Assembly: GCA_021234155.1 (NCBI GenBank)
Contig: JAJEKV010000058.1
Span: forward strand, 4,164,600 to 4,228,599
Origin: Isoetes taiwanensis
Lineage: Eukaryota > Streptophyta > Lycopodiopsida > Isoetales > Isoetaceae
Direction: 5' to 3'
Length of the DNA stretch: 64,000 nucleotides
Below the pieces are notes generated by a model. It did not search any database, was not told where the DNA came from, and saw only the letters and a list, made by a program, of their open reading frames with translations. How positions within the stretch are numbered: position 1 is the stretch's first letter; each line of letters opens with the position of its first letter. Made by a program: the position numbers and the translations under genes. Positions 23,116 through 61,309 of this stretch are shown here, one piece after another.

Positions 23116-23325
23116 GGGTTATATTTCAGAGGCCTTATCCTAGTAATATTGGACCAGGATCTTTCACAATGTCATCACGTAGAGGGAGGGTGTTGATGCT
23201 AGAAGACGGACCCTTAAAACCTTCCGGAAGCAGTTCGCCCCAGAGGTCCTCTCTCTAAGGCCCCTGGCCACGGACGGGCAACTGTCCTGCTCCGGAACTG
23301 TGAACTGACTCTGCCAATGGAGCCC
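23116..23325 (-). repeat. Partial copy of the ~800 bp unit between minisatellite blocks
   Basis: This segment aligns with 26870-27060, in the inverted unit: GGACCAGGATCTTTCACAATGTCAT, GAAGACGGACCCTTAAAACCTTCC and GACGGGCAACTGTCCTGCTCC have close counterparts there. It separates block 1 (plus) from block 2 (minus), so the minisatellite changes orientation across it. Confidence 0.85.
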
Positions 23326-28345: not shown

Positions 28346-28361
28346 GTCTCACGGGGTCCGG

Positions 28362-29312
28362 CCACCTAGGCTATAACATGCCACACGGGCTCCAACATGC
28401 CATGTGAGCTCCAACATGCCACGTGAGCTCCAACATGCCAAGTTGGCTCCAACGTGCCACCTAGGCTCAAGCATGCCAAGGTGGCTCAAATATGCCACCT
28501 AGGCTCCAACATGCCACGGGCTTCAACATGCCACGTAGGCTCCAACATGCCAACTAGGCTCCAACATGCCTCATGAGCTCTAGCATGCCGGGCTCCAACA
28601 TGCCACCTAGGCTCCAACATGCCACCTAGGCTCAAGCGTGCCAAGGTGGCTCAAACATGCCACCTAGGCTCCAACATGCCACCTACACTCCAACATGCCT
28701 CGTGGGCTCCAACATGCCACCTAGCATGCCACCTAGGCTCCAACATGCCACTTAGGCTCCAACATGCCACCTAGGCTCCAACATGCCACGTGAGCTCCAA
28801 CATGCTAAGTTGGCTCCAACGTGCCACCTAGGCTCAAGCATGCCAAGGTGGCTCAAATATGCCACCTAGGCTCCAACATGCCACCAAGGCTTCAACATGC
28901 CCCGTGAGGCTCCAACATGCCAACTAGGCTCCAACATGCCTCGTGAGCTCTAGCATGCCACCTAGGCTCCAACGTGCCACCTATGCTCCAACATGCCACG
29001 TGGGCTCCAACATGCCACCTAGCATGCCACCTAGGCTCCAACATGCCACATAGGCTCCAACATGCCACGTGAGCTCCAACATGCCACATAGGCTCCAACA
29101 TGCCAAGTTGGCTCCAACGTGCCACCTAGGCTCAAGCATGCCAATGTGGCTCAAATATGCCACCATCAGCTCCAACATGCCACATAGGTCGCAACATGCC
29201 ACACAGGCTCCAACATGCCACGTGAGCTCTAACATGCCACCTAGGCTCCAACATGCCACCTACGCTCCAACATGCCACCAAGGCTTCAACATGCCACGTA
29301 GGCTCCAACGCA
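28362..29312 (+). repeat. 19 bp minisatellite, block 3 (plus orientation)
   Basis: About 50 units (by length) in the orientation of block 1, for example CTCCAACATGCCACCTAGG. It mirrors block 2 on the other side of the 800 bp units. A higher-order period is visible: a run of about 300 bp starting AAGTTGGCTCCAACGTGCC near 28440 recurs near 28805 and 29103. Confidence 0.95.
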
Positions 29313-35335: not shown

Positions 35336-35470
35336 GGAAGAAATGGGCAAGGAAGAGATGCTGATGTGAGAAGACGCCGATAACCAAACACAAGAATGAA
35401 TAGTGCATATATAGCTGCTCGTCCCTTCCCAGAATGCCGATCCGATGGCTCGGATCGATGCCTATTATCA
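35336..35470 (+). repeat. Dispersed hairpin repeat, copy 2
   Basis: Same order as at 32968-33137: GAAATGGGCAAGGAAGAGA, GAGAAGACGCCGATAACC, CATATATAGCTGCTCGTCCC, and the GATCCGA/TCGGATC hairpin. Very similar to copy 1. Confidence 0.8.
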
Positions 35471-37090
35471 AATCATAATGCAAAGCACTGTGATCCCTAA
35501 CCTGTAGGATGTCCTAGAAGGCATCGAGAGCCCGAGCTAAGACTCTGCATGTTGGTGCTAAAGAAAAATAAAGCCATGTGAGCACAAAGAGAGCAATAGA
35601 ACAAGAGAAACTGCTAGAATAATGGTGAGAACCCCAGACGTAAAGATCACGAAGGGAAACAGCGCCAGACGCCCCCTATAATATATATACGACCCGGCCG
35701 TATACATACGGGACTTTCCTCCCATGGCGCACCATCGCGCCATGAGCGGGGGCCCTCCATCTAACCGGGGCCGTCACGAGACGCGCTCGGGGTGAAGGAC
35801 ACGGAGGGGTCATTCGGCCCACGCCTTCGATGGGCGCCTACGTCGCGGAAGCATGAATACAAGGGTTAGCACACAGCATAAATCACATATAAATAACCAC
35901 CACGAAGGGTGGCACATCCATCCAAATACCAACGGCAAGGAATATGCATCTAAGACTAAGAAAACACCCAAACCCCGGGTTCTACCCCGGTCCGGACTCT
36001 AGTGGGGAACGACCGATTGGCGGGTCTCGGGGAGATCGTGACCCGAATCTTGGCATGGCGTTGGCTGGCATAGAACATCGGCTAGGGTTGTCCACTCCAT
36101 CCGCCCCTCCCACGTGCACACTTTGCGAGATGGGTCAATTCACGCTATGGCGCTTATAGCCTCCTGAGAGACGTAGGCTCTAGGGATCACCCTTTGAGTC
36201 TACTCGGGTTCATGACACCTGGTCCGTGGATGAGGCAGGTGGGGAGGCGTCCCCTTCCGGGATCACACGGTGGTTCCATGGGTGAGCTAGAGAATACGTG
36301 CGCGCATCGGCTGACCCCGCATCCGTGCGGCGTACTCACCCTAAATCTACTCAAAGTGCATGGTGCCCCATACGGGTCACACCACTACACCGTGGAGTGT
36401 CGGACCCATACCCGCCCCTACGTGGACCGGCCATCGAGGCCCTAGCCCATTTGTAGGAGTCTCGGGGAGCCTTGTATGCTCGTGCAAGACCCCACCCCTC
36501 ATCTTGCCACTGTGTCCCTTGTCTGGTGCTAAGCCAGACCATAGCATCTATGACCCGGTGGGCTCTTGTGCACATGCCGAAACTAGTAGGGTGTTAAGGA
36601 AACACTAGGAGCATTCTATACCCAAGCTCGGGGGCCTCTACCCCCCTTTTAATCCCTGTTTACTGGAGCGACTAACTGACTCATAGAGACATCGACCCTT
36701 TCATAACAAAGCATCATTCATAATTGAACAATATTCCTAGTTACCAAAGAAGGGTTAATCTGAACCAAAGCTAGTCAGGCAAGAATACCAAAGTAATATC
36801 CTACAATTTGTAAGTTAAGCTACCACTGACCAGTGTTTCGGCTAGAGCCGTTGTCAAGAGGCGCTTCCATGGTGCTGTACTGGGGTAGCAGCGACGGTTA
36901 GCGGTGTCTTGGCGATTGGGCGTGCTCTGAGCGCTTAGCTGCTTCCTGGTGCTGGTTGGGTCGAAATTGGGGTGATTTGAGGATGGCGCCTCCCTTTGGT
37001 GGCCTAGTTTAGCAACCCTCATGCTGGCCACCCGGGTTATGCCAAATGGCGCCTTCCCACTATGAATTGGCCTAATCACGTCTTTAGAAT

Positions 37091-39490
37091 ATGTAGCATA
37101 ATAACAGGGGGTTTCTTTTGTATTTTTGTACGTTTTTTCCTAAGGTTTTCATATGATTTCATGGATGTATTTGATGAGGTATACTAATTAGTATATCTAG
37201 AGTGCGCATACGCTTAAACTAATTTTGATGCCTAATTCCAATGGTTTAGACCCATATGTAATATATTCTTTATTATATTATTGTATTTTCTTGTAGTATC
37301 ATATTCTGCTAGACATGCAAGCCTCGAGATAACCCATTTTAGGGTTATGTGTTGGGAACTTATTGGCTTCCTTCAGCATCCGGCAGCTAGCTAGGCCTCA
37401 GCATCAACATTCGAGCATCCAGACTGTCTCCAGAAGAACACCAACACCAAACTATGTCGGCTCCTTCTTGGCATGAGATCGGAACTCAGCACAGGGTATT
37501 TTTGGCCGGCAACAGATAGGGGCTAAGTTAGTTCAGGTCGGAAGAGGGTATTCTTTGTTTCTGTGCTTCTATGGTTTTCTCCCCATGACTCCATGGCAAA
37601 ACGTTGTGGGGTCTGTGGTGCCGAACTGGACCAGATTTTTAGCAAGGACAGAGAATCAGAGTGAATCTGCACTTGCAGATGATTACCTATCCAAATCGGC
37701 CCCTTTGAAATCGGCCTCTTTGTTCAGTGCAAATCTCTTGCAAGGATCTTTGCCTTAAATCGACCTCCCAGTAATTTGGGGCTGTAAAACGAAGGTATTC
37801 CTTGGGTTGCAGGTTGCATTTCTTCTCCCAGTAATTTCGGTTGCATTTCTTTCTTCATCGCGTCCTTGTATCTTGGTGTTTAGTTTGGGTTTTTTAGCAG
37901 ATACCAAAGAGCGACAGATTTTGAAACATCTTAGACTTTCTTCCAAGCTCATTTTCTCATAGGCTTGGGCAATTTGCTTACGGTCTTTACTTTTGGGTGC
38001 ATTCTGTTATGAAGGAACTTTTGGCTTGTCAAGGCTAGTGGCGGAGAAGTATTTGTGGCAGGCAGGCTAGTGGCGGAGATGGAGGTTGAAAATCCAATCC
38101 TATCCACATACACATCATCATAGCAGTCTTTGAAATGATGGTAATAAATTTTTATTGCAACTTTAGGAAGAGCATAGGGCATTGCGTGGAAGCAAGTTTG
38201 CAGCACTTCCACCCAAATCAGCCGACCCATCTGATTCTTGTCCCAGGTATATGATTTTGATTGAAACTCCAAATTAATTGTCATCGGATGCTAATTCCCT
38301 GCTTATGTTTTGTCATCTAGAAATTACTGAAATATTGAAATTGTATATGATCCTTTGCAAAGGTTGGCTCATCCAGGAGGGGCTTTAGCAACGAATAAGG
38401 TCTCTGCGTTGGTTAAATTTTTGAAAAGAAAGCTTGAGAGTGGTCCAGTATCTTTAGATCCAGATCTTGTTGAACGTGCTGTGCATAATGCTAAGGCTTC
38501 AATCAAGCCAGGTATCTCTTGTATTTTTAAAACGTTTTGATCTGCATCGTTTGTTCTTAATGCCTATGTCATTTCATGCTTTACAAGGCATGTTTTGTTG
38601 AATAATCTAGTTGGTATGCAACAGCAAGGAATTGTTATGACAAGAAACAGCGCATACTCCCTTCTACGGAAGCTGAGAAGCGGAAATCTTTAGAATGCGC
38701 TAGAAGACTCCGGTCTCTTATTCTTCACAGGTTGGATAGAATTTCTGTTCTAGGCGATCATCTCATACGGATTTTTTCTTGCCATAAGAGTTTATATGAA
38801 GCTAATTGGGCATTTGATGCAATAGAGAAACAAACTTCATACACATGGCTGCAATCATTCTAACAAATGCTAAAGTTTGGGGAAATGTTGTACACTCTTG
38901 ACTTGTACCACGAGAATGCACATATTGGAAATAAGAACTGATGTATATACATACGTTGCTGTCTTCAATCTTGCATGATGAAAAATTTGATGTTTCATGG
39001 AAGGATTATACACGCTGAGGACATTGTTAACAAACTCCAATTGGATGATGTGATGGGGAGCACCCTCATCCATATGTATACTATGTGCGAACTCTTAGGA
39101 GATGCATGCCAAGAGCCAAAGCATTACGGCATATCGAAGTGCCGGATATTTATTGAGATCCTTCGGAGGAAAGGTCAATATATTTTGTGCGAATTCATTC
39201 TTATTTTACTCGTGGTATATACCGCGAGGATGGCCACATCATTCTTGCTATGGACTCGTTGGATGGCCATTTGTCCATTTCAATGTTTCTAACATAAAAC
39301 ATTGTCATATATTGAGATGAATAGTCACATTGCAACAAACTATTTCAGCTAAAAATGCATTGTATTAAATGAAAATGCAATGTCCTTGATGTTTTATACA
39401 ATCTCTTGAATTAATAATTAATATTCACGCCCTTAAAGTTTCTATTTTTTTTCTTTTGTTAGGGCCCGAAGGGCCCAAAAATTTTTTTTA
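37091..39490. mobile_element. ~2.4 kb insertion in the 3' LTR of C, class unknown
   Basis: Foreign DNA starts after TCTTTAGA of the LTR and runs to the foldback element. It carries PPR gene debris on plus (about 38.36-39.13 kb). Its left part (37.1-38.3 kb) has no recognised gene. Clear terminal repeats or a target-site duplication were not found; about ten bases of LTR are missing at the site relative to the 5' LTR. It could be a gene-capturing transposon or a repair-filler insertion. Confidence 0.55.
38361..39130 (+). pseudogene. Decayed PPR protein gene fragments
   Basis: Three segments are readable. At 38361-38511 ATNKVSALVKFLKRKLESG and VERAVHNAKASIKPG are flanked by splice-like AG and GT. 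At about 38610-38862 EKRKSLECARRLRSLILHR is followed by ISVLGDHLIRIFSCHKSLYE and ANWAFDAIEKQTSYTW. At 38975-39130 GRIIHAE...NKLQLDD precedes MGSTLIHMYTMCE. The last two are typical pentatricopeptide repeats of the plant organelle RNA-editing (PLS) class. The frame is lost after SYTWLQSF (TAA near 38862), again before GRIIHAE, and the repeats after TLIHMYTMCE are missing. Such proteins bind organelle RNA. The plain reading is a captured or retroposed fragment of a host gene. The first segment may or may not belong to the same gene. Confidence 0.7.
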
Positions 39491-39949
39491 TATAACAATC
39501 AATACATAATTACCATTAACATTATTAACACAAACCATTGCATTCAATGCATTTAAATTAAAATCCCCCTTAAACCCCCTTTGGTTTGGGTGCATATTCA
39601 CACGGGGGGTGACGTAGGGCAGCGAGAGCCCTCATAATTGTATTTTGCACGTACGAAATCAACACCATATAGTATTCCGCTTGAAATCTTATAGTATTTT
39701 GTGAATCTTGTTATACAGTATAGCAAATTTTGTACTTGCATACCCCACAAATGAGGAACTTTACGTACGGTGTAGATTAAGGAATAAGGGGCGAATATGC
39801 CAATCCGACAGCTCTCGATGCCCGGAGTCACCCCCCGTGTGAATATGCACCCAAACCAAAGGGGGTTTAAGGGGGATTTTAATTTAAATGCATTGAATGC
39901 AATGGTTTGTGTTAATAATGTTAATGGTAATTATGTATTGATTGTTATA
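39491..39949. mobile_element. 459 bp foldback/MITE with ~120 bp terminal inverted repeats
   Basis: The left arm from TATAACAATCAATACATAAT (39491) to about 39612 is repeated in reverse at about 39826-39949 with almost no mismatch, then decays. The spacer is about 210 bp with no gene. The ends lie at TA-rich target DNA (TATA on both sides), compatible with a TA or TATA duplication. Near-perfect arms mean a recent insertion, younger than the LTR of C that it sits in. The autonomous partner is unknown. Confidence 0.85.
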
Positions 39950-40081
39950 ATTCGGTTAACATAGCTAATTAAATCCATTGTGGCCAACCCCCTAGGTTAT
40001 CATACCCTAGGTGGCGTACCTATACTAGGTGACGTGTCAATATATTTATACGTATACCGTATAAATACTTGGAACGTCACA

Positions 40082-40095
40082 TTCTCCCCTCCTTA
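40082..40095 (-). other. Polypurine tract of chromovirus C
   Basis: The minus strand reads TAAGGAGGGGAGAA directly before the TGTGACG of the 3' LTR. It is the expected primer for plus-strand DNA synthesis and fixes the left LTR as the 3' LTR. Confidence 0.9.
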
Positions 40096-40662: not shown

Positions 40663-42150
40663 CTACCCCTCTAGGGCGCTACTCTTGGGAATAAAGCTTC
40701 CAAGCTTACCGCCGGGTGCGGGGTTGATAGCATCGTTGATGGTGCGGCCTTGAGATTCCCGCATAAAGTCCGGATAGTGCTTGTCAAGGTCTATCTTCAT
40801 TACCCACGTAGCATCCTCAACTGGTAAGTGTTTCCACTTAACCAAGTATTGCAACATTTGAGTCCTTCTGGTTTGTTTGTAAGCTCGATCAAGAAGAGCT
40901 TCGGGCACTATTTCCAGTTGCTCTTCTGTCATTTCTAGGAGGGTTGGGGAATCCAAAACCTCCTCTGGATCAGGGGTATGTTGTTTCAGAAGACTCACGT
41001 GAAAAACCTTGTGAATCTTTAAGCGGGGTGGCAATTCCAAACGATATGCCTGCTCTCCCACACGCTCAGTAATTTTGAACGGTCCAGCCCATCTAGGTGC
41101 TAACTTCTTGCAGTTTCCGATCTTAAGCTTGGCTTGTTTCACTTTAATCTTAAGCCAAACCGAGTCGCCCACCTGGAAAATGCGTGGAGTTCTGCGTTTG
41201 TCGGCCACACTCTTCTGACGGCTGCGTGCAGCTAATAAATAACCACGAACTTCTTCGACCAGCACTTGCATCTCTAAGAGGAGTTGTTGAGAACCCTCTA
41301 CTTTAGAGACGGGGTTATGCCAGGTATCTGGGGTAAGGCATTGATAACCATAATTTATCATAAAGGGAGACATCCTGGAAGATTCCTGCTTCATGCTGTT
41401 ATAAGCAAATTCGACCAGATAAATATAGTCAGCCCATTGTGATTGCTTACTCCATACATAACTTCTTAGCATATCCTCTATAATGCGATTGGTCCGCTCT
41501 GTCTGGCCATCTGTTTGAGGATGATATGCTGTGCTCATAGCAAGCTTGGTCTGAATGGTGGTAAAGAAATCTTTCCAGAATGCGCTCACAAATTTGGGAT
41601 CCCTATCCGACACAATTACCCGTGGCATTCCGTGTAATCTGAAGATTTCCTTGGCAAATAGCAGAGCAGTATCAAAGGCTGTATCCGTGGTACGACATGG
41701 CAAGAAATGAGCCATTTTCGACAATTTGTCGACCACAACCATCAAGGCATCATATCCCCGGAGAGTCCTTGGAAGGCCCACAATAAAATCCATGGTTATC
41801 ACTTCCCATTTGGCGTTGGGCACATCCAGAGGTTGTAGCTCACCTGGGATTCTTAACTGTTCTGCTTTAGTCTGCTGGCATACCTGACACTGCCTAATAT
41901 ATCTGGCAATGTCCTTCTTCATAGAAGGCCAGAAATAGCTGGAGCGAATCTTAAAGTAGGTTTTCATAAATCCTGCGTGTCCAGCTATAGGGCTATTGTG
42001 TGTGTCATGAAGAACGAGTTTCCGTACTCCTGAAGTGTGCGGTACACAACTTATCCTTGTGATATAATAAGTTGCCCTCTTTTTTATAGGCACGGAAAGC
42101 GTCACGCTCTGCATCCGTGCGAGCTTCCTTAGCCAAACTCTCCCAAATGT
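40663..42150 (-). pseudogene. Chromovirus C integrase with chromodomain
   Basis: The HHCC finger runs from H49/H59 to C89/C92 (RQCQVCQQTK). The catalytic core begins MDFIVGLP (D122) and continues VSDRDPKFVSAFWKDFF and TDGQTERTNRIIEDML, giving the D, D and E positions. A GPF-type motif follows (WAGPFKITERVGEQAY), and the protein ends in a chromodomain (LQYLVKWKHLPVEDATWV). The chromodomain marks the chromovirus clade, whose integrases are known to use it to target histone-marked chromatin. The frame is continuous over about 490 residues. Confidence 0.95.
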
Positions 42151-44140
42151 CACAGAACTCCGGATCTGTGGCCAAGGTCTGTTCTATCTGTTTGCCAAAC
42201 TCACTGGTAAGCGTAGAAATGGCGTTGCAATGGGTTCGGGTCACCAAGGGGTGGCGTGATAAAGCATCCGCAACCACGTTGTGCTTGCCAGGCTTATACA
42301 TAATCTCAAAATCATACTCCTCGAGAAATTCCATCCATCTTCTCTGACGGAGATTGAGGTTGGGCTGGGTGAATAAATAACGGAGACTTTGATGATCCGT
42401 ATCCAATTGGAATCTTCTACCAAGAAGGTAGTGTCTCCATATCCGCAGAGCACGAACAACGGCTAACAATTCCTGATCATGGGTAGGATATCGCTGCTCT
42501 GTCTCATTCATCTTCTTTGAATCGTAGGCAATTACCCTCCCCTCCTGCATTAGGACCCCACCGGTGGCAATTTTACTGGCATCAGTCGCCACTAGCTTAT
42601 CCTGTTCAGGATCGGGCAATGTGAGAACTGGTGCTGATGTTAGGGCATCCTTAAGCTGCTGGAAACTCTGCTGAACTTTCGTCTTCCAGTGGTCCATCCA
42701 ATCTTTCACCTTCTCATGCTTTGTGAGATTTGTAAGAGGAGCTGCAATCTTCGCGAAATCCTTTACAAATTTTCGATAGTAGCCTGCTAATCCCAAGAAA
42801 CTCCGGACTTCGGAAACATTCCCTGGAATAGGCCATTCCCTTACGGCCTCTATCTTTGCGGGGTCTGTAGCAATTCCCTCTGCGGAAATGATATGGCCTA
42901 AATAATCAACCTTCGGAGTGGCGAACTTGCACTTAGAGAACTTGGCGTAGAGTTGATGACGTCTCAGCTTTTGCAGGGCCAGTCTAAGATGTTTCTCATG
43001 TTCCTCGAGGGTCTTACTGTAGATGAGAATGTCGTCGAAGAAGATAACAACAAAATCATCCAAGTATTGTCGGAAGACATCATTCATCAGTCGCATGAAT
43101 ATTGCTGGGGCATTAGTTAATCCAAAAGGCATAACTGTAAATTCATAATGCCCATACCTAGTGCGAAAAGCAGATTTATGGATGTCCTCCTCCTTGATCC
43201 TTATCTGATGGTATCCGGAGCGTAGATCAATCTTTGAGAAGTACTTAGCCCCTTGTAACTGATCCATTAGGTCATCTGCCCTAGGCAAAGCATAGCGATT
43301 CTTGATGGTATGCTTGTTGAGTTGTCGATAATCAATACACATCCTCAGCGAGCCGTCCTTTTTCTTAACGAAAAGAATAGGAGCGCCAAAAGGCGAAACA
43401 CTAGGTCGAATGAAACCTAGGTTTAGCAGCTCCTGAAGTTGTGTCTTAAGTTCTGCCAATTCTGGAGGACTCATGCGGTACGGGGCCTTGCTGGTAGGCT
43501 TGGTACCTGGTTCTAAAGCTATTTCACATTCCACCCCTCTAAAAGGAGGAAGCTTCTGGATCTCATCCGGAAAAAGATCACCAAATTCGTGGAGAAGATT
43601 TGCAATCCCCTTTGGGAGGCCGTCGATTACTTGTTTTTGCTTAGCATCTGACTCGATGGAAGCAAGCATAATGATGCAAAGGAGCTTTTCCTTGTGTATA
43701 GCTTTATCTAACTGTCTGATGGACATAGACTGCAGGATAGGGTTGAAAAGTTCACCTTTGATAGTGACTCGAGCTCCATTAGCTGCGTTGAAGGTAACTT
43801 CTCTCTTCTCGCAGTCTATGTTGGCTTTTGCAGATGCCAAGAATTCCATACCAACAATGAGGTCATATTTTCCAATATCCATCAATTCGGCACCCAAAGC
43901 AACTGGTGCACCTGGGAGCTGCATGTTGAGATTGATGCGACGGCCATGGGTATGTCTGACTTTACCACTGGCTAGAGTAACAGGCCTCGGTCGGGACCTC
44001 AATGTTTCTAGACGTAAGACATGGGCCATCCTAGGAGAAGCAAAATTATGTGTACTTCCCGTATCCATAAGAATTACAAAAGGCTTCCTGTCTACTTGGC
44101 CTATGGTAGAAAAATAAACGGCGAGGCTGACTCTCAGCAT
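42100..44140 (-). pseudogene. Chromovirus C protease, RT and RNase H
   Basis: The domains are in order. The aspartic protease has [12 protein letters not shown] near residue 26 and [15 protein letters not shown] has [52 protein letters not shown] and the catalytic [15 protein letters not shown]. RNase H has [45 protein letters not shown] and [13 protein letters not shown]. This is the standard Ty3/Gypsy order. The frame is open for about 700 residues, so the copy is well kept. RT and RNase H convert element RNA to DNA in the particle. Confidence 0.95.
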
Positions 44141-44149
44141 TGCCGGTTT

Positions 44150-45448
44150 CTATAGCTGCAAGGATATGAGACGCACCGTGAATGTAATTGGGAGGCTCCT
44201 CCTCGACGGGTTGTGTTGCTTGAGGTCATCCCAATCGAGGGTCGGCCATGGGCGGTGGGCGTCTAGCGTGACATAAGGGCAGTGCATGAAGTGTCCTGGC
44301 CTCTCATACACTGTAGCATGCCTTATCTCTACGGAGCTGTTCACGGGCCTCTTTAGGAATAGGCGTAAGAGGTTCGAACTTCCTTACCAGGCATTGTTAC
44401 GCTTATCAAAGCACTAAAGGTGACCTTCTTTTCCTGACGGCCATAAGAGTTCTGCTGAGAGGGCCCCGGACTTGGCGAACGAGGTTTATAAGGTGTGGAC
44501 GGCCGTGGCTGCGCATAGGGAGCAGGACCCGACACTGGTTCCTTGGTGTGTCCTCCTCGAGGCTCAATGCTTTAGCGTCCGCCTCTGCAACTGATTTCGG
44601 GTCTATGGCCTTAACCATGCGTTTGATTGATGGTGCCAATCCTTCAATATAGCCTTCCACTGCCCTTTTCTCATTCATACCGGTACATCTGGTCTCAAGC
44701 GCATAAACTCATCCGTGTAGGCTGAACCGACATACCCTTTCGTTTCTAACCTATAAAAGGTGCGGATCTGTTGGCATTTTGTGCGCCACGAGGCACATAA
44801 TGCGACTTAAAAGCCTTGGCAAACTTCACGAAGTTGCATCGCTCGTCTAGATGTTTGGCTCTAGCATAGCCCTTCCACCAAATGCGGGGCAGCTCCGTAA
44901 GATTGGTGGTAGCAACCTTCGGTATCCTTTTACGTCATGCCATAGGAACGTCCAAACTCCTTCATCTCGTCGAGCGCGGGACTCGCATTTAGTCCGCCTC
45001 TAGATTTCCCATCAAAGCGGGCGGTTTTACGTTTCTTCCATATCTTGGTTATGGCCGTGTCAACCGTTTTCACGGTACTCCTTGTCCCGGCCATTATGAT
45101 CACTAGGCGATGCAAAGCGGCCGCAGAGGGACCACGAGAGGTGGCCGATTGCGAGGAGGTGGCGCTATCTTTGGAGGAGCCCCGACGACGTTTGGGCTGA
45201 GGCTTCCTCGGCACAGGGCCAGGACTGGCTTCCGGTGGTGACGGCTGTTGTGCAGGTGGACTAGGCGGCAACGGAGGTAACTCCGGCCCATCCTCTTGTA
45301 GGTGCTGGGGTGGATTGGCATGCAATACATAGGCTTGCAATTCGCCTAGCTGCCTTTTCATTAGCATAAGTTCCTGTTCAGGGGTTAGCCTACTGGCATT
45401 CGAGGGCGTTTGCCAAGCGGCATTGCGTACACCGTCTATATCGAGCAT
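44150..45448 (-). pseudogene. Chromovirus C gag region
   Basis: The N-terminal part is Pro-rich with a basic nuclear-signal-like RKPQPKRRRGSSKD. A segment near 45.0-45.1 kb (DTAITKIWKKRKTARFDGK) resembles the start of a gag core. Further on are EKRAVEGYIEGLAPSIKRMVKA and AEADAKALSLEE (near 44.6 kb), typical of the gag C-terminal part. Gag forms the particle that carries element RNA. The region is interrupted by several breaks, so this copy would not make Gag on its own. Confidence 0.7.
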
Positions 45449-45748
45449 TCATGAAAGTATAAGCAGACTTACAATAACATACAATTTCATTCAGATAACA
45501 TTTACTGACAGTGACCAGAGAAGTACAAACAGAAACTGATGCTTCATTCCATTCAAGTTGAGTACAACAACAAGTTGATTGGTACATAGGTTGGCACAAA
45601 AGGAGGTATTATACAGTGGAAGTCTTAAAGTTCTACTCGCATACAGCGTAATAACAACAAAAAAACATAACTGGAGGGCCAAGCCTAGGGGTTCGCAAAG
45701 GGGTACAGGATCGAGTATCGGACACTCTCCCGTACAGTCCTAACGAGC

Positions 45749-46138
45749 TTATAGCGTGCCCAGGCCAATGACTGGCTGATAGTCCCACGTTGGGCTAATA
45801 ATGAGAAGATTGAAAAGCCTCCTCAAAGCGTAGAAGAGTTGCCACAGGTGGTCATTAGCGTCCTCGAAGGCTTCATGCCTGGTCATGCTCCAGTAGTCCC
45901 AGGGGCGGCACAGGGTTTTCTTCAAGTCCTCAAAAGCTCTGTCCCTGAGAATATTAACTATCTCCATCCCTTTTGCTGGATCATAAGGTTCTCCTGGTGG
46001 CGGGGGTTCCATCTCGTAACCTTCATCCCATTCTGGATATTCTCCATATCTCTGGCCATAGTCCTGTTCGGGCGGCCCGGGGTCATCCCTCCTAATCAGG
46101 TCTGTAATCCTTTCTTCATAGTCCCAAGGTGTCTCCTC
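45749..46138 (-). CDS. Small acidic frame between ORF2 and gag
   Basis: An open frame of about 130 codons begins right after a splice-acceptor-like TTGTCTTTCAG (46139-46149 on minus) and includes an internal ATG at 46012. It is rich in Asp, Glu, Pro, Trp and Tyr (EEPWDY-like start; MEPPPPGEPYDPAKG; LCRPWDYWSMTRHEAFEDA). It is not recognised. It may be a spliced 3' exon of ORF2 or a separate frame; no evidence decides. Confidence 0.4.
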   Translation of the reverse strand, partial: EETPWDYEERITDLIRRDDPGPPEQDYGQRYGEYPEWDEGYEMEPPPPGEPYDPAKGMEIVNILRDRAFEDLKKTLCRPWDYWSMTRHEAFEDANDHLWQLFYALRRLFNLLIISPTWDYQPVIGLGTL

Positions 46139-46366
46139 TGAAAGACAACGGAAATGAATATAGAGGGTTGGATGGTTTTGTTATAGACCAACTCGAATAA
46201 CCAGCAAAACATATGACAGAAGGAATAACTTTCTATTGTATTCATAAAGATAGTAATTTCAATCGATGAAAAGAAAGACGTATCATATTATAAAGTGGCT
46301 ACAGAATTTGCCAACCCAAATTCCACAATCATACGCAATACAAAAAAAATGCGTAGTACAATTAGT

Positions 46367-47767
46367 TTAAGAGCTAGGTCCTCCCTCTTCATCCGTAGGC
46401 CTAGGAGGTGGTGGAGGCGGTCGGTGTCGCAGCAGAGTCACCCCGGGATCTACTGTGGCAGCCGCAATAGATGCAACCTCTCGTGGATAGGCAACGGCCA
46501 ATGGGGCTGCCGTGAGGAGCTTCATGCTCATCCAGGGCGCAATATCCTGACCCAAGGCCGTCAGGGCAAGATCCCGTCGCACGAGTACATAAGTAAACGT
46601 ACGGTAGGGAAGCGTCTTGTGCCCGGCCAGTGTAGAGAGAGCACGGAGGGCCCACCATGAAGCTTCAGCCTCTGGCCCCAAGTCTCGGGCTATAAAAAGA
46701 ACTTGGCCCTGCCGGAAGGCTAAGAGGAAGAAGCGGGTAAGGTGGTTTCCCAATACCTTCCCTTGTGAGGTCTCGGATGTAGCCACTTCCTTATCCAAAT
46801 CCATAGGGACTTCTTCTTCTTTAAGTTCCTGTTGCTCCTCCTTCGTATGAGCAGGATTATGATATAAATCCTCTCCCTCGTCATCTGAATCGGAGGGAAC
46901 CTCAACCATGTTGATATTTGGGACGTGAGGTCCCATAGTCGTGAAGGCATCTGGTGAGGGCTGTGAGGCCGGCTCCTGCATCACGAAGTCCCGAAGACGT
47001 AGTAGAGTCTCAGCCGGCTCTATGGTCTCTTGGCGGAACTGGAGCAGCTGCTGCACCTCCGGAGGAAGCTCAATAGAAGTGAAGTCAATGAAGTCGTCCA
47101 TACAATACTCCGCAAGCTCATAAAGCACATGGTCTTTACGCTTGCGTCTAAATCCGGCCACCATGTGATAAGTCCAGATAATATCATCCAAGAGAAGATA
47201 TTCTTGCCCTTGGTGATAAATAACTGGAAGGGCATCCAGCCCGGACAAGCCTACGGCTTGCTCATGACGCGGAGGCAGCTCTTCCGCTAATTGCTTCCAA
47301 CGGGCGAAGTCGCCCATGCCTATGTGTTCGTCTTTCCCCTCCTCGGAAGACTCAGGCAGTTTGCCCTTCTCTACTGGCAAGGTTTCATCCTCGACATATT
47401 GGTCCACGAGGATGGCTAGGGCAAAGGCAACCTCAAGGTATTGCCGCCCCTGATGCTGCACAACGGGCAGGTGTTTGCCCCATCGGAGCTTCCCCTTCAG
47501 CACATCGTATGCATGGGTGTCTCCCCCTAGCATCTCCCGGACTACCTCCCGCTCCAGATACAGCTGGAGAGGATCCCCAAGAGGAATACACAGAGGAAGC
47601 ATCTCCTCCATGTAGAAGTCTAAAAATCCGGCGTAATCTGGGTGCCTCTGCATGTTAGCAAGGAGGTCTAAGGGCGCCGGAGCAAAAGGGCATGATGGGT
47701 CGAAAGGGACTTGCGGATCCCATTGCTCTCCGTCATGGTACCAGGCGATAAGGTCGGCGGCAGCCAT
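46367..47767 (-). CDS. ORF2: unknown protein of 466 residues
   Basis: It starts at the first ATG (MAAADLIAWYHDGEQWDP), in a strong start context. I do not recognise the family. The N-terminal 250 residues are mostly helical with repeated YHQGQEYL/QHQGRQYLE-like phrases (at about 105 and 200), which suggests two related halves. An acidic stretch follows near residues 300-340 (SDSDDEGED; KEEQQELKEEE). A hydrophobic helical C-terminal region contains LRALSTLAGHKTL and VRRDLALTALGQDI, and the protein ends in a proline run. The acidic stretch resembles those of histone chaperones in composition only. The C-terminal region has a faint layout likeness to an H2A-type histone fold; this is a guess. 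It lies 239 bp downstream of ORF1 and upstream of gag. Confidence 0.75.
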   Translation of the reverse strand: MAAADLIAWYHDGEQWDPQVPFDPSCPFAPAPLDLLANMQRHPDYAGFLDFYMEEMLPLCIPLGDPLQLYLEREVVREMLGGDTHAYDVLKGKLRWGKHLPVVQHQGRQYLEVAFALAILVDQYVEDETLPVEKGKLPESSEEGKDEHIGMGDFARWKQLAEELPPRHEQAVGLSGLDALPVIYHQGQEYLLLDDIIWTYHMVAGFRRKRKDHVLYELAEYCMDDFIDFTSIELPPEVQQLLQFRQETIEPAETLLRLRDFVMQEPASQPSPDAFTTMGPHVPNINMVEVPSDSDDEGEDLYHNPAHTKEEQQELKEEEVPMDLDKEVATSETSQGKVLGNHLTRFFLLAFRQGQVLFIARDLGPEAEASWWALRALSTLAGHKTLPYRTFTYVLVRRDLALTALGQDIAPWMSMKLLTAAPLAVAYPREVASIAAATVDPGVTLLRHRPPPPPPRPTDEEGGPSS

Positions 47768-47934
47768 GGCGCTAGAGGAGAGGAGGAAGCAAGAAAATGA
47801 AAGAGAACAAGTGGGAGTACACACTAAAAACCCCTTTTCAAAGCCTTTTTATTATTACGCTGATGTCAGCAGTTTCATATTTTAAAATAAAATATAAGGT
47901 TCTCAATACATCATCAACTTAAAACAAAAGAGAG

Positions 47935-47953
47935 TTTTTTTTTTTTTTTTTTT
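47935..47953 (-). other. A19 run 53 nt after the ORF1 stop
   Basis: On the coding strand of ORF1 an uninterrupted run of 19 A follows the stop after 53 nt, preceded by AATAAT. It looks like the poly(A) tail of a reverse-transcribed mRNA whose coding part ends with the H3 stop codon. A chance A run in AT-rich DNA is possible. Confidence 0.6.
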
Positions 47954-48006
47954 ATTATTTATCGAAAAAGAAATATGTACAATGGGAAAACCCCGGTAAC
48001 ACAAGG

Positions 48007-49251
48007 TTAAGGATGCTCGCCCCAAATCCTGCGGGCGAGGGCTAAATCCTTTGGCATAATGGTAACTCTCTTCGCGTGAATCGCGCAGAGGTTAGCGTCA
48101 CCAAAAAGTGCCACGAGGTAAGCCTCCGCAGCCTTTTGAAGTGCCAAAATGGCAAAGGTCTGGAAACGGAGGTCGGTCTTGAACTCCTGCGCGATCTCCC
48201 GTACCAGCCTCTGGAAGGGGAGCTTCCGTATTAGAAGTTGGGTTGACTTCTGAAACTTGCGGATTTCCCGCAAGGCCACGGTACCAGGTCGGTACCGATG
48301 AGGCTTCCTTTGTGGGGCGGGTTTGGTAGGCGGCCCCTTCGGTGCTGGCACCGTCTTAGCCCCAACAGCCGGTCGGGAGCTATCCACCCGCTGCTGTCTC
48401 CGACTGGAGCTGGTATTCTTGCCAAAAGCTCCGACAGTCTTTAGTTTCTCCTTGTATTGACTGCCGGTCTTTCGGGCTAAACCCTTCCTCCGGTGCTTAA
48501 TGGTCACATGTTCGGTCGGGGTCGGGCCCGACCCACTCCCAGTTGCCCCTCCGTCCTGCGGGTTCAGCTGGTCCTGCCGATCCCTCTCCTCCTGTTCAAG
48601 CTTCTCCCGTTCCTCCCGGGCTCTCCTCAGATCTTCCTGAATCTGAGCAAAATGTTGGGCTGCGCTTCGGCGAAGAAGCTCAGCCTGGTACCGCTGAGGC
48701 CGCAGACCCATGCCTATCTGAATGGTTGTCAGATAGTCTATGCTGATATCGGGGATTTCCCCCCATATAAAACTGTTGGAGTCCTCATGCCAGCGATATG
48801 GGGGAACCTCAATAGCTCTGCCATCGATAACGACAAAGCCTTCCCCGAGGTACCTGTATTCCCTTCCCCGGGCCGCCGTATCTGCCCGCTCTATCTCCCG
48901 GTGGTCATCTTCCCTGGCCAAACCCCTGATGCGGTCGGCCTCTGTCCTGATGTCCTCCTCCTCTGTATGCCCCTCTTGTTCGGGAGGATAAAACTTGATC
49001 AGCATCATGACCATGTCATGTTGCTCGGCGAGGGTGTAGGGGAGCTGGCGGAGGTTCAGCCGGATCAGAAATGGCTCTGAGAAGTGATAGACAGGATAGG
49101 GAATCCTATCGTTGTTCTCAAACCGGTTCACCAACTCATCTAAAAGGATGTCGATGAAGGCCGGATCTGTAGCCATGTGCCGGGCGATCAAGGCATAGAT
49201 CTGCACTATGCTTAGGGTCCTGGGGTCTATGGTGCTCTTGGTGTTAGCCAT
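48007..49251 (-). CDS. ORF1: unknown domain fused to a histone H3 core
   Basis: The protein is 414 residues, starting at the first ATG (49251), which has a strong start context (G at -3 and at +4). Residues 1-180 form an unrecognised helical domain ([50 protein letters not shown]). Residues 186-228 are a charged coiled coil ([20 protein letters not shown]), and 248-315 a Lys/Arg/Pro-rich linker. Residues 316-414 align without gaps with histone H3 from K37 to the C-terminus: [50 protein letters not shown]. By eye about 84 of 99 positions equal plant H3.3; Tyr41 and Leu90 point to H3.3 rather than H3.1. Loop 1 has canonical length, unlike CENH3. The normal H3 tail (K4, K9, K27) is absent. The frame lies between the 5' LTR and gag of chromovirus C, where such elements usually have no gene. 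Role unknown; chromatin binding or cDNA packaging is inference. Confidence 0.93.
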
Positions 49252-49429
49252 AGCTATGGTACTGAGGTCTACGAAGTCGGGCAGTAAGGCGCTGGCGGCG
49301 AAGGAGGCGGCAAAGAGGGCGCTAGGGTTCACAAGGCACAAGGGCGGCGAAGCAAAGTCAGGTCCGGTGGCGATGGCGGGCAGCGGCTCTGGCGGTCGAA
49401 GGTGCTGAAGGCAAGGCAAACAAATGACA

Positions 49430-50020
49430 AGAAGAAATTTTTAAACGGCCAGATAACTTTTGAAAATAAAATTTTCCTATTAACTTTTAAATTTTTAGTA
49501 TTATAAAATAATTATACGGCGGAATTACGCGAGGCATACGGTCGGGCGCCGGCTGCATTATACGCGCTCCCGCCTCGACTAGAGGTCGTCAAAAAGCAAG
49601 CGGCGCCCGAGTTGACCTGGCGGCCCGCGTTGACTCCCGTCTGACCAGTCGGGCGCCGACTGCATTTTCGGCTCTTCTACCGTGACTGCAAGACGACAAA
49701 AAGCAAGCGGCGCCCGAGTGGGTTTTCGGGCCTGCCCTTGACCATTTTTTCGCCTGGAGACAACCGTTCTAGGGTAATTTGAGTATGTCCGATCCAATGG
49801 ATGCACCTTCTCCGTCATTTGAGCTACCCACTGACATTTACAATTCTTCCAATTCTTGGCCCCTCCAGTCGCCCTATCCTTCTTGAAGCTACAATTTCCT
49901 AATTTAACCTAACACCGAACCAAACATCAAAGAGGACTAACAATACATTAACTTAGCCTCCTCCTAACTACCGTGCTACGAGTTAGTGTTTGGCCAGTGC
50001 TATGATTTCGAGCAACCGAA
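49430..50020. other. 5' leader of chromovirus C between primer site and ORF1
   Basis: No gene is seen. The phrase AAAAAGCAAGCGGCGCCCGAGT occurs twice (near 49591 and 49698), and GGTCGGGCGCCG- or CAGTCGGGCGCCGACTGCAT-like phrases recur near 49541 and 49646, giving GC-rich short repeats with palindromic GGCGCC cores. A structured RNA leader is possible. Confidence 0.5.
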
Positions 50021-50025
50021 ATCAC

Positions 50026-50038
50026 GGCTCTGATACCA
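50026..50038 (-). other. Primer binding site, initiator Met tRNA type
   Basis: The minus strand reads TGGTATCAGAGCC one base inside the LTR, the classical plant retrotransposon primer site complementary to the 3' end of initiator Met tRNA. It fixes this LTR as the 5' LTR and the element as minus-strand. Confidence 0.95.
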
Positions 50039-50039
50039 C

Positions 50040-51622
50040 TGTGACGCTCCCAGAATATATACGACCCCCGGCCGTATACATACGGGGACTTTCCCCTCCC
50101 ATGGCGACCATCGCGCCATGAGCAAGGCCATCCATCTAACCAGGGCCGTCTACGTAGAGACGCTCAGGTGAAGGACACGGAGGGGTCATTCGGCCCACGC
50201 CTTCAATGGGTGCCTACGTCGCGGAAGCATGAATACAAGGGTTAGCACACAACATAAATCACATATAAATAACCACCACGAAGGGTGGCACATCCATCCA
50301 AATACCAACGGCAAGGAATATGCATCTAAGACTAAGAAAACACCCAAACCCCAGGTTCTACCCCGGTTCAGACTCTAGTGGGGGAACGACTGACTGCTGG
50401 GTCTCAGGAGATCGGCAGACCGAATCTTGGCATGGCGTTGGCTGGCATAGAACATCGGCTAGGGTTGTCCACTCCATCCGCCCCTCCTGTGCACACTTTG
50501 CAGATGGGTCAATTCACGCTATGGCTTCGCTATAGCCTCCCGGAGACGTAGGCTCTAGGGATCACCCTTTGAGTCTACTCCAGGTTCATGACACCTGGTC
50601 CGATGAGGCAGGTCGGGGAGGCGTCCCCTTCCAGGATCACAGTGGTTCCATGGGTGAGCTAGAGAATACGTGCCGCATCAGCGACCCCCGCATCCGTACC
50701 CGACGTACTCACCCTAAATCTACTCAAAGTGTATGGTGCCCCATACGGGTCACACCACTACACCCAGGGAGTGTCAGACCCATACCCGGCCCTCTACGTG
50801 ACCGGCTATCAGGCCTAGCCCACTGTAGGAGTCTCAGGAGCCTTGTATGCTCGTGCAAGACCCCACCCCTCATCTTGCCACTGTGTCCCTTGTCTGGTGC
50901 TAAGCCAGACCATAGCATCTATGACCCGGTGGGCTCTTGTGCACAGGCCGAAACTAGTAGGGTGTTAAGGAAACACTAGGAGCATTCTATACCCAAGCTC
51001 GGGGGCCTCTACCCCCCTTTTAATCCCTGTTTACTGGAGCGACTAACTGACTCATAGAGACATCGACCCTTTCATAACAAAGCATCATTCATAATTGAAC
51101 AATATTCCTAGTTACCAAAGAAGGGTTAATCTGAACCAAAGCTAGTCAGACAAGAATGCCAAAGTATTATCCTACAATTTGTAAGTTAAGCTACCACTGA
51201 CCAGTGTTTCGGCTAGAGCCGTTGTCAAGAGGCGCTTCCATGGTGCTGTACTGGGGTAGCAGCGACGGTTAGCGGTGTCTTGGCGATTGGGCGTGGTTCA
51301 GCAACTGGGCTCTGAGCGCTTAGCTGCTTCCTGGTGCTGGTTGGGTCGAAATTGGGGTGATTTGAGGATGGCGCCTCCCTTTGGTGGCCTAGTTTAGCAA
51401 CCCTCATGCTGGCCACCCGGGTTATGCCAAATGGCGCCTTCCCACTATGAATTGGCCTAATCACATGTCTTTAGATAATTATCCTTTATAATTCGGTTAA
51501 CATAGCTAATTAAATCCATTGTGGCCAACCCCCTAGGTTATCATACCCTAGGTGGCGTACCTATACTAGGTGACGTGTCAATATATTTATATGTATACCG
51601 TATAAATACTTGGAACGTCACA
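50040..51622 (-). repeat. 5' LTR of chromovirus C (1583 bp)
   Basis: The minus strand starts TGTGACGTTCCAAG and ends GGGAGCGTCACA. It aligns along its full length with 35666-37090 plus 39950-40081. A TATA-like TATAAATATATTGAC lies near the start of the LTR on minus. LTR frames are short and not meaningful. Confidence 0.95.
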
Positions 51623-52140
51623 GGCGTACCTTCCAGAGAATGATGAGAAAACTCACCACGAATGTTCCCGTAGCAGTGATGTGGAGAAGGAATCCAGTAG
51701 AAAGGCTGGAGAAGAAATCCGTCGGACGAAGAGCCATTGAAGCAATGGGAATGAAAGAAGTGCTGCTGTGAGAAGACGCCGATAACTGGTCTCGAATGTG
51801 GAGTGCACTTATATAATGGCTCGTCCCTGCCCAGAATGGCGATCCGAGGGCTCGGATCGATGCGATTGGTTTGGATAGATTTTTTTGAAAAGACTTCAGG
51901 ATTATTTATCTAGAAACTATATATCTATAAAGGTCAAAGGTTAAGGGACATTAAGTACCAATTACTCACATGAAAATGGAATCTCAATTGATAATACAAT
52001 CCTTGGGACTGACCAGGAATTGATGTCAAATCTAGGATCCTAGATTTGGCTGGGTTTTTTTTTAGACACTTCAATTCCTTGGTACAACCAGGGACACTTA
52101 ATTCCCTTAGCCTTGATCTTATAGGAGAAATGAAATAAAG
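51623..52140. other. Flank of chromovirus C; hairpin repeat copy 3
   Basis: At 51733-51862 lies a diverged third copy of the dispersed hairpin repeat (GTGAGAAGACGCCGATAAC, TTATATAATGGCTCGTCCC, GATCCGAGGGCTCGGATC). The rest shows no gene. Confidence 0.65.
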
Positions 52141-58559: not shown

Positions 58560-60710
58560 ATAACTATGTCATGTTGAGGCCTAGGATCTTTTGCAGTATG
58601 TCAGTACGTGCTACTGGCCTGCAGAATTACAATACATCAGTACTTATAAAATAATTTAAGTAGTGTGGTTGAAGGGACCACCCCCTTAAGAAAAAGAAAT
58701 ATGAATGAAGGAAATTCTATCATGCCTAAGACTTGCATATCGTCTCAGCGTAAAAAATGACCATATTCCCATTATAGCCGTAGACGGATGCGTCCTATCA
58801 TGAATGCCTATATGCCCAATTTCCCATCTAGGATGCATATAACCCAACCCTTGACATGATCCCTGTCGGATCAAATCTCATATAATCCCTACCGGACCCA
58901 TAACACAATGCTTACCATTAGGGTTGGAGTTGATCGCATCCTGAATGGTTCGGCCCTGGCATTCTTGCATAAAGTCTGGGTAAGTCTTGTCGAAATCCGC
59001 TTTAAGAACCCAGGTTGCATCCTTTGTCGGCAAGTGCTTTCACTTAACCAAATACTACAAGATTTGAGTTCTGCAGGTTTGCTTATATGCACGATCAAGG
59101 AGAGCTTCAGACACAATCTCCAATTGATCTTTCGTCATCTTCAGAAGTGTTGGCATGTCAAGAATCTCTTCTAGATCGGGGTTATGCTTTTTGAGAAGGC
59201 TCACATGACTTTATGGACCTTCAAATGTGCGGGTAGATTCAATGGGTAGGCCTGAGAACCTATCCTTTCGGTTATCTCAAAAGGTGTCGCCCATCTAGGT
59301 GCAAGCTTCTTCCAATTGCCAATTTTGAGTTTGGCTTGCTTCACCTTGACATTTAGTCATAGGACTCACCAACTTGAAATTCATGTGGTATTCGATGCCG
59401 ATCGGCGAGACTCTTTTGCCGGGCTCTGGCGGCTAACAAATACCCTCGAACTTCTTCAACTAGGGCCTGCATATCTGTAAGCAATTGTTGAGACACTTCC
59501 ACCGTGGAAACCGGATTATGCCACGTGTCTGGAGTAAGGCATTGATAACCATAGTTGATCATAAAAGGAGACATCCTTGAAGACTCCTGCCTAGTACTGT
59601 TATAGGCAAACTCCACCAAATGGATATAAGGTGCACATTGGGATCGCTTGTTCCAGACATAGTTACATAGCATATCTTCGATTATGCAATTGGTGTGCTC
59701 TGTTTGGCCATCCGTCTGCAGGTGGTAAGTTGTGCTCATACCAAGCTTAGTTTGAATAGTGCTAAAGAAATCTTTCCACAATGCACTAACAAACTTAGGA
59801 TCCCGGTCTGATATAATGGTACGGGGCATCCCGTGAAGGCGAAACACCTCCTTTGTGAACAACACGGCGGTATCTAACGCAGTATCTGTGGTCCGACATG
59901 GCAAAAACTGTGCCATTTTGGAAAGCTTGTCGACCACCACCATCAAGGCATCAAAGCTTCTTAAGGTGCACGGAAGCCCCACGATAAATTCCATGGTCCC
60001 ATTTTGCATTAGGAACATCTAAGGGCTGCAATTTTCCCGGGATGCGTAATTGTTCCGCCTTCGTTTGCTGGCATATCTGACATTGCTTAATGTATCGAGC
60101 AATGTATTTCTTCATCCCTGGCCAAAAATAGCTGGAGCGGATTTTAAAATATGTCTTCATAAATCCTGCATGCCCCACTATAGGACTGTTATGTGTGTCG
60201 TGGAGAATGAGTTTGCGAACTCCTGATGTCTCGGGAACACATAACTTATCCTTATAAAAAAAGGAGATCACCTTCCTTCTTATAATGGTAGAAAGCCTCC
60301 CTCTATTTATCAGTTTTGGCTTCCTTGGATAGACTTTGTCATATTTCCTCAAATTCGGGATCTGTTGAAAAAGTTTTCTGTATCTTCTTACCAAACTCGC
60401 TGGAGAGAGTGAAAATAGCATTATAATGCATTCGGGTGATCAATGGATGCATGGAAAGCGTGTCAGCAACCACATTATGCTTGCCCGGCTATCTGCTTGA
60501 CATGTTTCAATAGCGGCATAAATGTGGAACTCACCTTGTATATAGTCTGATGCCTCGTCATCAGCAACGTTCTCCGGTTCAATTGGGCCCATGACATCAC
60601 CCCAATCCACTTCGGCAAGAGCAGCTTGAGCAGGCTGGGTAATGTATGGACATTCCTGCATACGATGTCCCGGACGGAAGCACCGGCAACAAGCTTTGTC
60701 TCTTCGTAAC
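58560..60710 (-). mobile_element. Chromovirus fragment D (family of C)
   Basis: On minus: part of gag with a zinc knuckle (60.4-60.71 kb), the RNase H to integrase region (about 59.35-60.42 kb), a decayed chromodomain region (about 58.9-59.2 kb) and the conserved 3' UTR phrase GGGACCACCCCCTTAAG (58674). Integrase blocks VVVDKLSKMAQFLPC, DRDPKFVSALWKDFF and QTDGQTEHTNCIIEDML match element C closely. Most of RT and RNase H is missing, no LTR is visible, and several breaks exist. At 60711 it abuts the LTR of element E, which probably inserted into it. Confidence 0.88.
60440..60710 (-). pseudogene. Zinc-knuckle gag end of fragment D
   Basis: The frame reads RRDKACCRCFRPGHRMQECP, a C-x2-C-x4-H-x4-C zinc knuckle, followed by an acidic stretch (VDWGDVMGPIEPENVADDEA). 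This is the C-terminal end of a chromovirus gag that binds RNA. It is joined directly to downstream pol remains by loss of the intervening part. Confidence 0.75.
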
Positions 60711-61309
60711 TGTTTGGGGTCTGGGTTCGGGAACTCCTGCAAGACAGCCCTCTGTGAGGACCCTTGGATCTAACAGGAGAATCCGGGGGACTATGTCACG
60801 CGGGATTTGCAAGAAAAGAACAAGAGGAAGAAAACAGAACAAAAGAGAACAATGAGAGGAAAATGATAGCTTCCTTGATATCAATGATGAACATACATGA
60901 GCTCTCGCAATCGAGAGAAGACTAAGAGAGACAAGACTCAAAACTCATCTAAAAACTCATGTGCTAGCTCTACTCATATATATAGTACAATTGCCTTTGG
61001 CCCAATATAGACACTCGGTGATCGATCGGTGCCGACTCACGGAAGGAGGCCTGATTCTTGATAATGTTGGCGTGCCTCTTAAAGTGCCTAGAATCGCCGG
61101 CACCGACGCGGGGCGGTGGTGGCCGTCACTTGTCCGAAAGCGGGCGCCTCTTGTTGGCTGACCGGACGCAGGCTTTTGGCTGCGTGGTCTGCCGCTTTGT
61201 CTTCTTTGGGCTTTGGACGGCTGACCCGGTGCCTCACGTGGATCCTTGAGCTTGACCTGGTCCGTCAGATGCATGAATAGTCATGTACGGGGAGGCATGG
61301 GGACTAACA
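60711..61309 (-). repeat. 3' LTR of element E (599 bp)
   Basis: The minus strand starts TGTTAGTCC and ends ACCCCAAACA. It aligns along its length with 7637-8229, including the identical phrase TGTGCTAGCTCTACTCATATA. A TATA motif (CATATATATAG) lies near 60978. Confidence 0.9.

Follow-up and report, generated by a model that had tools for sequence, protein, structure and literature searches.

Plant LTR elements can carry additional open reading frames (ORFs), most of which lie between pol and the 3′ LTR according to the consulted sections of PMC7264820, and a pre-gag frame, ORF0, is established in Retrosat2, RIRE3, and RIRE8, with a Retrosat2 homolog in Selaginella (excerpts of PMC3485330). Retrosat-2 has been placed under the Tekay/Del chromoviruses (excerpts of PMC6317226). 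Histone H3-like sequences are known from fungal hAT transposons: those of Pyrenophora tritici-repentis carry an H3L and are mostly intact (PMC3538342, sections consulted), and in Pseudocercospora fijiensis all copies of the hAT H3 but the original have been inactivated, the gene being intron-less and hence thought to derive from a transcript or a retrocopy (PMC6710886, sections consulted). In a full-text literature search with most subscription journals outside its scope, none of the papers listed, as judged by title and the start of the abstract, dealt with a fusion of histone H3 in an LTR element. An earlier note on this DNA had claimed that no such LTR element has been described; this stands for the literature searched, but the note had missed two precedents, the fungal hAT H3 and the pre-gag ORF0.

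The window analyzed here is the whole 64-kb stretch of DNA, to which all positions refer. It contains an LTR element that encodes a protein ending in a histone H3 core, and we regard this element-borne fusion as almost certainly real. The features of the element, in the direction of its transcription, are as follows.

50040–51622, minus strand: 5′ LTR, TGTGACG...CGTCACA (direct repeats; alignment with 35640–37083 and 39947–40081)
50027–50038, minus strand: primer binding site TGGTATCAGAGC, one base past the LTR (sequence reading)
49541–49719, minus strand: two tandem leader hairpins with GGCGCC in each stem (72-nt direct repeat, 79%; fold z −2.8 for 49530–49740)
48007–49251, minus strand: H3 fusion ORF, 414 codons (frame list, Pfam, solved-structure match)
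48712–49251, minus strand: N-terminal region, residues 1–180, without known relative (low-confidence models)
48565–48696, minus strand: coiled-coil-like long helix, residues 186–229 (helix in both models; pLDDT 79–92 in blocks 201–230)
48307–48519, minus strand: basic linker, residues 245–315 (charge profile)
48010–48306, minus strand: histone H3 core, residues 316–414, corresponding to H3 K37–A135 (84/99 identical to plant H3.3)
47935–47953, minus strand: A-run of 19 bases (longest of three A/T runs ≥14 in the window)
47772–47773, minus strand: possible splice acceptor TCTCCTCTAG, separated from the ORF2 ATG by four bases (consensus scan only)
46367–47767, minus strand: ORF2, 466 codons, net charge −37, no known family (frames, Pfam, charge)
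45749–46180, minus strand: ORF3, an uncertain 143-codon stop-to-stop frame (frame list; acceptor-like TTTCAG at 46138)
44150–45448, minus strand: gag region, several frames (weak Retrotrans_gag, E 0.0078, and Ty3_capsid, E 0.038, both below cut-offs)
42005–44149, minus strand: protease, reverse transcriptase (RT), RNase H (Pfam RVP_2, RVT_1, RT_RNaseH)
40663–42183, minus strand: integrase and chromodomain, in a frame that differs from that of RT (Pfam rve, Integrase_H2C2, Chromo)
40082–40095, minus strand: polypurine tract, ending GGAGGGGAGAA beside the 3′ LTR (sequence reading)
about 35668–40081, minus strand: 3′ LTR, split by ~2.9 kb at 37084–39946 (direct repeats, alignment)

The features expected of a Ty3/gypsy chromovirus are present, namely two LTRs, a primer binding site, a polypurine tract, and the order protease, RT, RNase H, integrase, the integrase ending in a chromodomain (Pfam Chromo, E 4.5e-8, above cut-off). 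The primer site is presumably of the initiator-Met tRNA type usual in plant elements. The H3 fusion frame lies inside the LTR pair in the gag-pol sense, downstream of the primer site and behind a leader of ~790 bases; the earlier note had set it between the 5′ LTR/primer site and the gag of a chromovirus, and the LTRs, primer site, and integrase chromodomain found here agree with that setting, to which we add a second intact frame (ORF2) between the H3 frame and gag. The tandem hairpins of the leader are a possible packaging or dimer signal; an Rfam scan assigned the leader to no family.

Of the several gag frames, two gave the weak profile matches, and pol is broken once, where the integrase frame overlaps that of RT in a different register. 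Because gag is split over frames and the integrase is out of register with RT, this copy as sequenced is not a working one; it may be dead, unless the frame breaks are sequencing errors. The LTR pair differs at 8/765 aligned positions in the first 800 columns, at 76/771 in the rest, and at 84/1536 overall, in an alignment whose tail includes a few bases beyond the 3′ LTR end; the differences clustered past column 800 look in part like sequencing errors. No clean target-site duplication was found at the element ends, and the last three LTR bases are absent on the 3′ side. Similar sequences (85–89%) lie in the same orientation just outside both ends (35337–35461 and 51739–51863), and the 2.9-kb stretch within the 3′ LTR has a 156-base inverted repeat (39491–39646 and 39794–39949, 92%) near one end.

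The RT matches that bear names are plant Ty3/gypsy proteins (among 120 listed of at least 8000 candidates), and over RT–RNase H the 25 best listed matches are 64–67% identical. A midpoint-rooted tree of the element and 103 of the 120 listed matches, a set with no labelled Tekay/Del references, places the element outside a clade of 99 rows (support 99/94) that holds nearly all flowering-plant rows together with the rows prefixed PITA, which we take to be pine; support for its own position is 87/44, and the element itself is marked as long-branched. Four rows branch off outside the element, including two from Closterium and one from Brassica napus, the latter on a long branch. The tree thus speaks at most weakly for a seed-free land plant as host.

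At what we take to be the aromatic cage positions, the tryptophan in the middle of the integrase chromodomain's cage is retained, but the first aromatic residue is missing and the third position is occupied by Leu. Since the first aromatic residue is absent and the third position is Leu, this chromodomain should not read H3K9 methylation, as judged from these residues, and a direct link between the chromodomain and the H3 part is not supported. For the same reason, mimicry of ARKST by the stretch LARKTGS (residues 258–264 of the fusion protein), read by the element's own chromodomain, was dropped from consideration. Chromodomains without a full cage correspond to type II as described in PMC6317226; the consulted sections of that source place cage-bearing chromoviruses in non-seed plants only, and Tekay, Reina, and CRM in seed plants only. 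The incomplete cage of the present element therefore counts against a seed-free host, although a Retrosat2 homolog is reported from Selaginella (PMC3485330).

The window also holds other repeats. A second chromovirus integrase (58911–60241) is about 75–89% identical, by piece, to that of the H3 element, and upstream of it a minus-strand frame of 446 codons (61574–62914) is intact and belongs to no known family; considered as a further copy of the fusion, this frame was rejected, being not similar to the H3 fusion frame. Remains of a third related chromovirus span 8672–15323, with an LTR piece at 14858–15194 that is ~72% like the LTR of the H3 element. A repeat of ~600 bases (83%) occurs at 7637–8229 and 60711–61309, short tandem repeat arrays, partly inverted, are among the repeats listed for 22631–29309, and a 411-codon frame at 16902–18137 has the RT-like motifs GYHHVPI and YMDDFLF and is perhaps DIRS-like.

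The H3 fusion ORF starts with an ATG at 49251, ends with the stop at 48007–48009, and has no internal stop; the stop-to-stop frame around it starts at 49440 and comprises 477 codons, compared with a longest minus-strand frame averaging 132 codons (maximum 242), counted over three frames, when the internal region of the element was base-shuffled 300 times. The intact frame of 414 codons reported in the earlier note, which gave no strand, is thereby borne out, as is its account of an H3 tail replaced by a domain of no family, a coiled coil, and a basic linker: residues 1–180 belong to no Pfam or NCBIfam family, the only 10-residue blocks above pLDDT 75 (201–230 and 211–230 in the two models) lie inside the helix at 186–229, and the net charge is +6 in each 30-residue block across residues 241–330. 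A 10-residue stretch within the basic linker is a possible nuclear localization signal. The protein begins MANTKST, which shares five of seven residues with the H3 start MARTKQT, a likeness that may be due to chance.

Beyond the histone part, Pfam matched nothing at E ≤1. A search with residues 1–270 drew 3844 candidates from a set of 5.8 billion proteins, none of them a relative at E ≤10; it needs shared five-residue words, so that distant relatives may escape it. With the whole protein as query, which drew at least 8000 candidates, no match covered more than 46% of the query among the 120 listed of at least 5144 matches; the 10 listed matches that were examined each have several copies of histone H3. 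The two single-sequence structure models have mean pLDDT values of 41 and 43 and no confident fold in the N-terminal part, and are too weak for a fold search.

The histone part was identified by the histone HMM check that the earlier note had proposed, with Pfam Histone matching residues 300–409 (E 1.6e-40) as the sole Pfam domain at E ≤0.001, and the best solved-structure match of the fusion protein is an H3.3 (E 2.2e-51). Residues 316–414 align without gaps to the plant H3.3 core K37–A135 with 84/99 identities, the figure that had been estimated by eye. The tail with K4, K9, K27, and K36 is absent, the gapless identity beginning at K37 and the K36 position being Arg, and so the missing N-terminal tail (K4/K9/K27) of the earlier description is confirmed. 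The 15 core changes relative to H3.3 are Y54F, E59Q, D77E, S86T, H87F, V89I, E94K, G102A, E105G, T107A, I124L, Q125A, R131W, R134H, and A135P; Tyr41, Leu90, K56, and K79 are kept. The gapless alignment of normal length, with its high identity to H3.3, lacks the CENH3 features of a longer loop 1 and strong core divergence, in keeping with the earlier exclusion of CENH3.

The same 99 residues match the plant H3.1 core at 82/99 and the H3 core of the charophyte alga Closterium at 83/99, and identity alone therefore hardly separates H3.3, H3.1, and algal H3. Position 87 is His in plant H3.3 and Ser in plant H3.1, and is Phe here. Of the residues that we take to be diagnostic of plant H3.3 (T31, Y41, H87, and L90), Y41 and L90 are thus present, position 87 is changed, and position 31 is absent. 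The assignment made earlier, to H3.3 and not H3.1, is likely but unproven. That the H3 part came from a virus is disfavored, because its identity to plant H3.3 is far above the 38% of the one H3-like contig that an IMG/VR scan with the H3 frame returned.

None of the 15 core changes falls on any of 32 positions that we take to form the DNA contacts and the H3:H3′ tetramer interface, against a neutral expectation of 4.9 (P about 0.004; 3000 simulations run to an equal number of changes, with position hits counted among stop-free runs), and the changes are milder than neutral ones (BLOSUM sum 6 vs. a neutral mean of −6.6, P 0.02). Over the 99 H3 codons alone, 46% of the 3000 neutral runs remained stop-free, so that the open frame of this part is not unusual; a neutral walk of equal depth and rate over 414 codons remains stop-free ~5% of the time, indels ignored. 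Because the listed contacts are spared, the changes are mild, and the 414 codons are stop-free, coding constraint has probably acted on the H3 part at some stage, either in the element lineage or in a host gene prior to capture; the contact positions could owe their conservation to selection on a host H3 variant that preceded capture. That the H3 part has been kept under selection as a protein seems to us reasonably probable. Much of the 15% protein divergence of the H3 part would be older than the present insertion, since the LTRs differ at so few positions in their first 800 columns.

The H3 core coding sequence has no intron, and the 19-base A-run begins 54 bases past the H3 stop. As to the other two A/T runs of this length class in the 64 kb, an 18-base A-run lies ~300 bases past a frame that we read as a LINE-like RT (11006–11890), on the same strand, and the third (9098–9115) touches integrase remains at 8785–9102 and is not a tail. 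In plants, H3.3 genes contain introns and their mRNAs carry poly(A) tails. The A-run past the stop is what capture of a polyadenylated mRNA would leave behind; it suggests that an H3 mRNA was captured, and may be the scar of its tail. Element RNA and a polyadenylated H3.3 mRNA would have been joined during reverse transcription, so that the H3 core, without its tail, came to follow an N-terminal region that is specific to the element and includes the coiled coil and basic linker.

The best explanation as a whole, which we hold tentatively and at somewhat less than an even chance, is that a land-plant chromovirus carries an accessory gene at the ORF0 position, upstream of gag, and that its protein uses a captured, tail-less H3 that pairs with H4 for tethering in the nucleus. 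The fusion protein would enter and act in the nucleus, where the H3 core would pair with host H4 and enter tetramers or nucleosomes; the coiled-coil part would stay outside as a handle, gathering further copies and perhaps element complexes. As an outcome, cDNA or an integrase complex would be tethered to chromatin, or new cDNA would be dressed in tail-less chromatin. We infer the successive steps of mRNA capture, selection, nuclear entry, H4 pairing, and tethering from the features described above. Entry into nucleosomes or tetramers with tethering, to which the retained contact positions of the H3 core point, is doubtful when taken on its own, and the single copy in the window, the frameshifted gag, and the broken pol count against the explanation as a whole. 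It is rather unlikely that a family of elements encodes its own H3 variant, which would enter nucleosomes on host DNA or cDNA and mark or tether element DNA, with ORF2 perhaps in a chaperone-like role.

ORF2 has no family in Pfam, NCBIfam, or solved-structure scans, and holds two similar stretches, LPVVQHQGRQYL and LPVIYHQGQEYL; IMG/VR scans with ORF2 and with the RT each returned no match. The charge layout, with a basic linker before H3 and an acidic ORF2 as its neighbor, suggests that ORF2 might escort the H3 fusion in the manner of histone chaperones. Six acceptor-like sites occur on the minus strand of 44000–51622, vs. three in the plus-strand control; four precede frames (49405 and 49292, H3 frame; 47772, ORF2; 46138, ORF3) and two lie inside ORF2 (47668 and 46709). 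Donor-like sites number two on the minus strand vs. four on the plus strand, and the site at 50712 is present in both LTRs. Retroviral-style splicing of the H3 frame, ORF2, and ORF3 is a lead only, since the joint chance of the site arrangement (0.0008) was computed post hoc, the scan used a bare consensus, and the donor-like site of the element LTR is not kept in the related LTR (15090–15330).

The main rival of the tethering mechanism is passive transduction, in which the H3 mRNA was gained by template switching, as in maize Bs1, and is of no use to the element. Plant LTR elements do transduce genes, and transduced ORFs are present in single or few copies (PMC7264820 and PMC13317346, sections consulted), which fits the lone copy of the fusion detected in the 64-kb window and the A-run scar past the H3 stop. 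However, passive carriage sits poorly with 15 H3 changes that spare every listed contact despite little divergence in the first part of the LTRs, with 414 codons free of stops and gaps, and with an upstream part for which the protein search found no host relative; we consider it possible, with the balance of probability against it.

Two further functions can be set against tethering to chromatin. As a decoy, a tail-less H3 would bind chaperones or the silencing machinery, or form nucleosomes without K9/K27 marks, and so weaken silencing. The absent tail, Arg at position 36, and the retention of Leu90, Tyr41, K56, and K79 are consistent with this, but position 87, which we take to be part of a patch read by chaperones, has been changed to Phe, and we regard a decoy as distinctly unlikely. 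Alternatively, the H3 core and basic linker would condense cDNA or RNA in the virus-like particle as a nucleocapsid substitute. The basic linker and kept DNA-contact residues would suit such a role, and no zinc-knuckle match was found in the gag frames scanned (44406–44708, 44746–44934, and 44930–45448), although gag, which was scanned in part, is too damaged for zinc-knuckle loss to be judged. H3 needs H4 for stable DNA binding, and virus-like particles assemble in the cytoplasm; both points tell against a role in the particle, to which we assign a low probability.

With respect to origin, the fusion could have been a host gene first, either a divergent H3 variant taken up in its entirety or a gene of the host caught between two LTRs. 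The third-position GC of the H3 fusion frame (0.65, vs. 0.47–0.48 in pol) would agree with this origin. Against it stand the location of the frame between the two LTRs, downstream of the primer site and in the gag-pol sense, and the lack of any protein with the N-terminal region in the search of 3844 candidates, in a set that may exclude the host; a host-gene origin is in our view very unlikely. An assembly or annotation artefact, for which the patchy LTR differences (76/84 past column 800) and gag frameshifts, both partly error-like, might be cited, is so improbable that we set it aside, given that the H3 junction lies inside the 477-codon open frame and that the rest of the element is in canonical order.

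The reading preferred here, that of an accessory protein with a captured H3 core encoded by a chromovirus, can be compared with known systems. Like the ORF0 of Retrosat2, RIRE3, and RIRE8 in rice and grasses, the H3 fusion is a sense ORF upstream of gag-pol; ORF0 is fast evolving and without established function in the available sections of PMC3485330. The LTR ends are a further point of likeness, being TGTCACACCC–GGGCGTGACA in ORF0 elements (excerpts of PMC3485330) and TGTGACG...CGTCACA in this element. The N-terminal region had no relative, ORF0 proteins included, at E ≤10 in the protein search, and no histone part is reported for ORF0, “histone” occurring 0 times in the main text of PMC3485330. 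Fungal hAT transposons with H3 are likewise mobile elements carrying an H3-like sequence, but they are DNA transposons with no RNA stage and a separate H3-like ORF, whereas here a tail-less core is fused to another protein. Pieces of host genes inside an LTR element are also known from maize Bs1 and further plant elements that transduce genes (sections of PMC13317346), although the transduced genes are others (ATPase, xylan endohydrolase, and glucanase), and “histone” occurs 0 times in that review. With plant H3.3 itself, the fusion protein shares the gapless core, Tyr41, and Leu90, and it differs in the lack of a tail, in 15 core changes that include H87F and R131W, and in 315 foreign residues.

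Some chromoviruses read chromatin via their integrase chromodomains; an element contributing a component of the nucleosome would act on chromatin from the opposite side. If other copies share the fusion under selection, they would offer a natural test of a tail-less H3 in a plant nucleus, as well as a means of building a tag into nucleosomes. The locus is an unusual gene fusion in an LTR retrotransposon, beyond chance and with indirect signs of coding constraint, in which the kinds of event (accessory ORF and gene capture) are already known. LTR retrotransposons would with it join the mobile elements known to have taken up H3, which in the literature found have so far been fungal hAT transposons.
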